64,000 nucleotides of DNA from Sphaerisporangium rubeum (GTDB lineage: Bacteria > Actinomycetota > Actinomycetes > Streptosporangiales > Streptosporangiaceae): positions 3,836,501 to 3,900,500 of the forward strand of contig NZ_JACHIU010000001.1 of assembly GCF_014207705.1 (NCBI RefSeq), given 5' to 3'. The notes beneath the pieces were generated by a model. That model was given only the letters and a program-made list of their open reading frames with translations, searched no databases and was not told the DNA's origin. This document shows positions 19,158-19,267 of this stretch, piece after piece. The stretch's first letter is position 1. Each line of letters starts with the position of its first letter. The position numbers were made by a program, and so were the translations under genes.

Positions 19158-19210
19158 AGGTGGCGCCTTTCGGGAGTGCCTGGTCAGCGAGGCGCTCCCG
19201 GCGACACCTA
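19158..19210 (-). promoter_or_regulatory. Hairpin sequestering the rox ribosome-binding site (attenuator)
   Basis: On the minus strand AGGTGTCGCC (19209-19200) can pair with GGCGCCACCT (19167-19158; 9 of 10 pairs), immediately before the rox ATG. An inner stem GGGAG/CTCCC is extended by GCC/GGC around a 10-base loop. The only purine-rich ribosome-binding candidate (GAAAGG) lies in or beside the 3' arm. The 5' arm contains the last bases of the leader stop codon, so a ribosome on the leader would open the outer stem. The geometry is that of translational attenuation or coupling. Confidence 0.65.
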
Positions 19211-19267
19211 GGTCGGTCGTCCGGCCGTGACGGCAAGGGGGAGCACCCACATCGGTACAGCGTTCAT
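19208..19267 (-). CDS. 19-residue leader peptide upstream of rox
   Basis: The ATG at 19267 follows GGAGGTGA (19273-19280), a near-perfect anti-16S match at 5-base spacing, the strongest ribosome-binding site in this part of the window. The peptide is [19 protein letters not shown], ending in TAG at 19208-19210. It is followed after two bases by the hairpin that covers the rox start. Its strong ribosome-binding site, short length, position and overlap with the hairpin argue for a regulatory peptide rather than chance. It was not matched from memory to a named leader family. Confidence 0.65.

Follow-up and report, generated by a model that had tools for sequence, protein, structure and literature searches.

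Does the short leader in front of a Rox-like monooxygenase gene of Sphaerisporangium rubeum sense a block in translation, or does it belong to a response to rifamycins? The question was raised by an initial annotation of a 64,000-nucleotide stretch of this genome, here called the window; all coordinates of the element and of rox given below are window positions on the minus strand. The annotation reported a leader open reading frame and a hairpin around the rox ribosome-binding site, read them as ribosome-dependent attenuation, and offered two options: a ribosome inhibitor as inducer, or a leader that couples translation to transcription speed. Our comparison confirms the observation and partly supports the interpretation. 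We consider it probable that the element is a cis-acting translational attenuator common to several stress or resistance-like gene families of actinomycetes, that a ribosome block near the beginning of the leader turns it ON, and that its inducers are ribosome inhibitors, not rifamycins.

The leader and hairpin upstream of rox

The leader (19208..19267) consists of 19 codons and a stop, with its ATG at 19267 and its TAG at 19210-19208, behind a strong Shine-Dalgarno sequence, GAGGAGGTGAG (19282-19272). A predicted occluding hairpin (19157..19210) has this stop codon at the foot of its 5' arm. The hairpin has outer arms at 19210-19200 and 19167-19157 and inner arms at 19199-19190 and 19181-19172, and its 3' arm ends at the rox ATG (19157). 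Enclosed in it is GAAAGG (19166..19171), presumed from its sequence to be the Shine-Dalgarno sequence of rox; in the predicted fold the GG is paired and the GAAA bulged. Leader and hairpin are therefore both present as had been described. Three segments matter for what follows: segment 1 (GGGTGCTCCC; 19239..19248), which spans leader codons 7-10 and begins 19 nt after the A of the leader ATG; segment 2 (GGGAGCGCCT; 19190..19199), which can pair with segment 1 or with segment 3; and segment 3 itself, the 3' inner arm of the hairpin. The occluding hairpin is present in the lowest-energy fold of the region, and the folding energy is ordinary (z -1.08 over 191 nt, with 27 of 200 shuffles folding as well; z -1.59 over 128 nt, with 11 of 200). 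Conservation among relatives demonstrates that the element is real despite this unremarkable energy. Rfam contained no family that matched in the window, and seven other loci with the element gave no Rfam match at E up to 1.

The gene behind the hairpin encodes a Rox-like FAD monooxygenase of 520 amino acids (17595..19157). It barely passes the curated equivalog cut-off of the family model NF033145 rif_monoox (803.9 bits, cut-off 800), and its closest solved relatives are PDB 5vqb and 5kow. Its first 47 codons (19017..19157) lie outside the match to the Rox family model. An IS5-family transposase adjoins the gene (14968-15818, plus strand), its first frame falling just below the family cut-off, and a frame beside rox at 16558-17268 on the plus strand looks recombinase-like by eye and has no Pfam hit. 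Directly upstream of rox, on the minus strand, is a GNAT-type acetyltransferase gene (19355-19873; weak Pfam match), before which our covariance model found no element.

Distribution and reading frame of the element

The DNA of 19146-19300 matched all 11 genomes of the genus, its own included, at up to five places per genome. These matches make up 26 loci, of which one (L112) is a chance match and 25 carry the element; seven of the 25, counting the window, precede rox, in seven of the 11 genomes. Among 80 Rox relatives in named genomes, kept from 572, the element stands before rox in 33, and a 34th match (L053) lies before a neighboring hydrolase gene instead. With a covariance model built from 36 copies, hits were obtained in 93 of 296 genomes of the class (E <= 0.01) and in 17 of 396 genomes of the phylum (E <= 0.001), all 17 in the same class. 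In total 208 copies were read after own-genome repeats (L001, L115 and L116) had been dropped, the class-survey part being drawn from among the matches listed.

The genes downstream of these 208 copies encode 77 alpha/beta hydrolases (76 assigned by clustering, and L144 with its broken frame), 57 PrmC-related methyltransferases, 55 Rox-like monooxygenases, 10 GNATs, eight patatin-like proteins and one Sir2-like protein. The share of Rox in this set is inflated, since part of the search was Rox-based. The class-survey copies taken alone (149 among the matches listed) precede 67 hydrolases, 50 methyltransferases, 15 Rox, nine GNATs and eight patatins. The leader is thus not specific to rox, as had been assumed, but is a general cassette. 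Two methyltransferases that were tested belong to TIGR03704. In a scan of three hydrolases L137 had no Pfam hit; its PDB match is the esterase 4ao6. The TIGR03704 enzymes carry a putative name only, and their relatives, going by family names, methylate release factors.

Two clear copies occur in the genome of S. rubeum, the one before rox and one before a TIGR03704 PrmC-related methyltransferase gene 50 kb away. The latter (L232; G000:C1:3906195-3906306, plus strand) is located about 5.7 kb past the end of the window. Its leader starts at ATC, and the changes in its segments 1 and 2 largely preserve their pairing. A third, weak model match in this genome (L117, 23.9 bits) had no leader on inspection and was rejected. 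Matches were also found in 39 of 72,556 plasmid records, 36 of them over at least 80% of the query and 28 from Streptomyces; none was found among 50,697 phage records. On the Streptomyces viridifaciens plasmid pKVP2 (CP090842.1; L287), the element is followed by a short open reading frame resembling a shrunken GNAT and then by infA, the gene for translation initiation factor IF-1. On another plasmid (NZ_CP108655.1; L290), the element and a hydrolase gene are flanked by two ISL3-family transposases.

The leader is preceded by GGAGGTG at the Shine-Dalgarno position in 204 of the 208 copies. Read from the start codon, 194 of 208 copies have their first stop no more than 20 nt ahead of segment 2; the other two frames give 16 and 27. 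The copies are related, and these counts are therefore not of independent events. Both parts of the proposed attenuation geometry, a leader frame and a hairpin enclosing the ribosome-binding site, are accordingly found, and the frame is kept across the family. The start codon itself differs between gene families. Rox leaders start with ATG (50) or GTG (3), hydrolase leaders with GTG (50), ATC (16), ATG (8), ATT (1) or GTT (1), GNAT leaders with GTG (8) or ATG (2), patatin leaders with ATG (7) and the Sir2 leader with ATT; methyltransferase leaders have ATT (31), ATC (21), GTT (2), GTC (1) or ATG (1). AUU/AUC, or rarely GUU/GUC, therefore occupies the start position in 74 copies, and 52 of the 57 methyltransferase leaders start at AUU/AUC (for example L102-L104 and L232). 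For these 74 copies alone the frame fits in 66, as against 12 and 4 in the other frames, while, modulo 3, all three spacings between start and segment 2 occur (34, 20 and 20 copies) and the open reading frame ranges from 14 to 26 codons. The leader start is displaced by one or two bases in five further copies, and the +1 frame fits in four of them. The reading frame argues that the AUU/AUC (rarely GUU/GUC) starts are used.

The conserved WVLP part of the leader is the RNA of segment 1, and the RNA persists when indels shift the frame. Selection on WVLP at the peptide level was rejected because the indel copies lose WVLP yet keep the RNA letters. Only at codon 3 (Ala) is the third position free, as in a coding column, and codon 2 behaves in the opposite way.

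Alternative pairings and the proposed switch

The initial annotation missed the central part of the element, an anti-sequestering pairing of segment 1 (leader codons 7-10) with segment 2 in the 5' arm, and it is this pairing that carries the covariation. In two alignments that were fitted to the model, and are biased towards the structure for that reason, 94.6% of cells were paired with 23 double-change cells against 6.1 +/- 2.0 in shuffles (A4, 77 copies), and 94.2% with eight against 2.1 (A3, 99 copies). A sequence-only alignment (A2) gave 98.3% paired cells and two double changes against 0.3. Segment 1 starts 16-21 nt after the first base of the start codon in 192 of the 208 copies; the scan did not find it in 16 (11 methyltransferase and five hydrolase copies). 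When segments were swapped among 82 copies with a divergent segment 1, a copy's own segment 2 beat the mean of the others in 46, a mildly favorable result overall, with 26 of 35 methyltransferase and 11 of 35 hydrolase copies preferring their own.

Segment 2 is common to this pairing and to the occluding hairpin, and the two folds are mutually exclusive. The stem formed by segments 2 and 3 is 87.7% paired and has four double-change cells against 1.9, without clear covariation. Within rox, the 19 pairs of the occluding hairpin are formed in 93.9% of cells, compared with 31-48% when the arms are slid, and the arms vary little (three double changes against 1.3 in shuffles). The check proposed in the initial annotation, covariation of the two hairpin arms, thus finds the pairing kept in rox but too little variation there for clear covariation. 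The 41 GTG hydrolase copies of the commonest spacing behaved as rox did, with 95.7% of cells paired. The letters of the outer stem differ by class: UAGGUGU/ACACCUA in rox, GGUCGU/ACGACC in the GTG hydrolases and GGGAGC/GCUCCC in several methyltransferases. In a swap test that left out three hydrolases with too short a stretch and the single Sir2 copy, a copy's own SD-AUG stretch was a better partner for its 5' arm than shuffled stretches were in 54/55 rox, 66/74 hydrolase, 52/57 methyltransferase, 9/10 GNAT and 8/8 patatin copies. The own stretch was also better than those of other classes in 47/55, 43/74, 49/57, 8/10 and 6/8 copies, respectively, and better than those of the same class in 36/55, 56/74, 33/57, 4/10 and 5/8. 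The spacing from GAAAGG to the gene start is short, mostly 8 nt in rox (43/55) and 7 nt in hydrolases (45/77).

These pairings suggest a switch that would act during transcription. With free translation of the leader, segment 1 would be hidden under ribosomes at the time when segments 2 and 3 leave RNA polymerase; segment 2 would then pair with segment 3, and the class-specific outer stems would close the stretch around the Shine-Dalgarno sequence and AUG of the gene (OFF). The footprint of an initiating ribosome reaches to about +16. A ribosome blocked at or just after the leader start should therefore leave segment 1, which begins at about +17 to +22, free to pair with segment 2 once that is made, so that the Shine-Dalgarno sequence and AUG of the gene would stay open (ON). 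The predicted inducers are blockers of initiation or of the first codons (lincosamides, pleuromutilins, streptogramin A and perhaps tetracycline), not rifamycins; the attenuator reading thereby speaks by inference for the ribosome inhibitor, the first of the two options originally offered. There are precedents for the early steps. Lincosamide, streptogramin A and pleuromutilin drugs stall ribosomes at the start codons of the are5sc and tiaA uORFs of Streptomyces (PMC12421871), disruption of the start of lmrC uORF2 leads to constitutive expression (PMC8546547), and tetracycline stalls ribosomes at the start of the toiL uORF (PMC12121999).

Folding calculations agree with part of this scheme. 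When the RNA ended at segment 2 and a ribosome occupied the start codon, the probability of the 1:2 pairing was 0.89-1.00 depending on the class. At equilibrium, the full-length RNA left free from +17 gave 0.05 for rox, 0.18 for hydrolases, 0.01 for GNATs and 0.01 for Sir2, with methyltransferases (0.46) and patatins (0.44) undecided. Equilibrium folding favors OFF, and ON must therefore be a co-transcriptional state. Locking the 1:2 pairing opened the stretch from Shine-Dalgarno to AUG relative to a masked segment 1 in 173 of 208 copies, an effect exceeding that of shuffles in 146 of the 208 (rox 50/55, methyltransferase 45/57 and patatin 7/8, less often in hydrolase 40/77, GNAT 4/10 and Sir2 0/1). 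Placing a ribosome at the start rather than masking segment 1 brought no gain in openness for rox (0.36 against 0.38), hydrolases (0.44 against 0.44) or GNATs (0.29 against 0.40), and higher values for methyltransferases (0.46 against 0.39), patatins (0.50 against 0.36) and Sir2 (0.58 against 0.43).

The closed equilibrium fold would also suit another arrangement, translational coupling, in which ribosomes finishing the leader open the hairpin at the stop and turn the gene on, the leader being an enhancer and not a sensor. Since the stop is the foot of the 5' arm in the window and lies just before segment 2 in the 194 copies that keep the frame, a ribosome terminating there would occupy part of this arm. 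Coupling nevertheless leaves three features without a reason: the covarying pairing that segment 1 makes with segment 2 from within the leader, the weak AUU/AUC starts that follow a complete Shine-Dalgarno sequence, and the WblC-like promoters described below. We think it unlikely. Still more doubtful is transcription attenuation, with 2:3 as the terminator and 1:2 as the antiterminator. It draws on the alternative pairings with a uORF described for lmrC and wblC (PMC8546547, PMC11550727), but here GAAAGG and the gene start follow at short spacing and the partner of the outer stems is the SD-AUG stretch itself. A promoter and terminator consensus scan of 17400-20100 found nothing, including no terminator-like site defined as a stem plus T-run, a definition that terminators without a T-run would escape.

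Promoters, Rox clades and known systems

WblC controls resistance to translation-targeting antibiotics, and the consensus of WblC/WhiB7 promoters is GAAAWY - 3 bp - TKGMNN - 16-19 bp - TANNNT (PMC7157823). Upstream of the leader in the window, the box GAAAGG (19337..19342), a partial match to GAAAWY, lies 2 bp (published 3) before a putative -35 TGGACG (19329..19334; published TKGMNN), which is followed after 18 bp by a putative -10 TAGCGT (19305..19310). This promoter fits a relaxed WblC-like pattern and not the strict consensus. The relaxed pattern was present in 40/55 rox, 31/77 hydrolase and 6/10 GNAT copies, with about 0 in shuffles, and in none of the 57 methyltransferase, eight patatin and one Sir2 copies; it ends 22 nt before the element in four examples. 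The strict published consensus was matched in 2/55, 4/77 and 1/10 copies of the first three classes and in none of the other three. Judging from these signatures, WblC/WhiB7 is probably an additional, transcriptional activator of rox and of some hydrolase and GNAT genes.

Rifamycin regulation seems to belong to a different group of Rox proteins. A palindrome whose letters we take to be those of the rifamycin-associated element precedes 34 Rox relatives, all among the 49 loci that lack the leader element, and a search reaching as far as 500 bp upstream of the Rox core did not find it at any of the 55 element-bearing loci, including the window, where the initial annotation had likewise recognized none. 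Not one of the 104 Rox loci has both. The rifamycin-associated element, found upstream of rifamycin-inactivating enzymes, is a 19-bp palindrome and not a leader (PMC10194278). In a Rox tree of 105 rows, which contains the window twice, the 56 rows with the element all fall within one 60-row clade (support 100), and 33 of the 34 palindrome rows lie outside a wider 68-row clade, the other (L030) being at its base. Nine alignment columns separate the two groups at the thresholds used. Against NF033145 four palindrome-type proteins scored 873-937; six of the element type, among them that of the window, scored 741-834, and three of these six fell short of the cut-off of 800. S. rubeum has one Rox of each kind: the second, L002 (G000:C1:5680982-5682523), is 64% identical, carries the rifamycin-associated palindrome, and has no element at its locus according to the covariance model. 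Because the element clade is not the palindrome clade, the activity on rifamycins that had been assumed for the window enzyme is unproven. A rifamycin-responsive leader coupling translation to transcription speed, the second of the original options, is favored by the narrow pass of the protein against NF033145 but is very improbable, given that most copies of the element precede genes unrelated to rox, that the 34 palindrome rows lie outside the 60-row element clade and that the two signals share none of the 104 loci.

The element-type Rox proteins may instead owe their leader to a hydrolase gene. In 31 of 55 the FAD motif is preceded by an extension of 32 residues or more, and a profile of these 31 extensions picked out 71 of the 77 hydrolases (E <= 0.1; best 2.3e-25), with no match in the other gene classes or in shuffled decoys. 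DNA identity by segment did not clearly show the shared N-terminus of Rox and hydrolase. We infer that the leader passed to a Rox gene along with some 40 codons from a hydrolase gene, which would explain the 47-residue extension of the window protein, and that other Rox copies may have shortened this remnant since.

The sequence comparison as a whole supports conservation of the element, its reading frame and starts, the 1:2 pairing, the occluding stem, the promoter signature, the two Rox clades and the shared N-terminus; translation of the leader, the order of events, the inducer and the substrate of the enzyme are what we infer from them. A broader and more tentative proposal, which we put forward as possible, is that the element represents a widespread new class of actinomycete attenuator gauging the ribosome at the leader start codon, in which the choice of AUG, GUG or AUU/AUC would set each family's sensitivity to blocked initiation; that the cassette would spread between unrelated genes, carrying with it the first codons of its former gene; and that the Rox clade which captured it may act on a ribosome inhibitor instead of a rifamycin. 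The prevalence of AUU/AUC starts before methyltransferase genes means that these copies are possibly sensitive to IF3 or to start-codon fidelity.

Translational attenuators of the erm and cat type likewise have a leader open reading frame, alternative hairpins and a hidden ribosome-binding site, and drug-stalled ribosomes occupy particular codons of their leaders. In the present element, by contrast, sensing seems to reside in the start region, and the rest of the peptide differs between copies, even in its frame. The toiL uORF of E. coli topAI resembles the element in combining a short uORF with a structure that hides the ribosome-binding site (PMC12121999), but is described there for one operon, whereas the element is a cassette that stands in front of six gene families of actinomycetes and whose leaders start at AUG, GUG or AUU/AUC. 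Closer to home, the lmrC, are5sc and tiaA uORFs of Streptomyces also mediate ribosome-dependent attenuation in which blocked uORF translation turns the gene on (PMC8546547, PMC12421871). They serve ABC-F genes and are described mainly as transcription attenuators, unlike the translational reading and other genes of the element, and the leader peptides printed there (MLV, MRS and MVGDDDISG) are unlike that of the element. Non-canonical AUU/AUA starts behind extended Shine-Dalgarno sequences are reported in Staphylococcus aureus (PMC13009471), where they start protein genes; the AUU/AUC codons of the element start leader peptides, in dozens of copies. Attenuation by uORFs is thus already known in Streptomyces, and what did not appear in the literature searched is this cassette, with leaders that start at codons other than AUG and with its occurrence before several gene families. 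The passages considered from two structured-RNA surveys (PMC11109978, PMC8632094) contained no such motif. A literature search over titles and the beginnings of abstracts, among the matches listed, likewise returned no paper on this leader, which is weak evidence of novelty as subscription journals were mostly outside its reach.

If the proposed mechanism is correct, a family-wide RNA switch would be added to the antibiotic-response network of actinomycetes, and several poorly understood gene families, namely the TIGR03704 methyltransferases, an alpha/beta hydrolase group, the GNATs and the patatins, would be recognized as taking part in the response to blocked translation. What a weak start codon does in a sensor could be studied on the naturally occurring AUU/AUC leaders. 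Finally, the name rifampin monooxygenase covers clades of proteins that are regulated differently, so for one of these clades it may be wrong.
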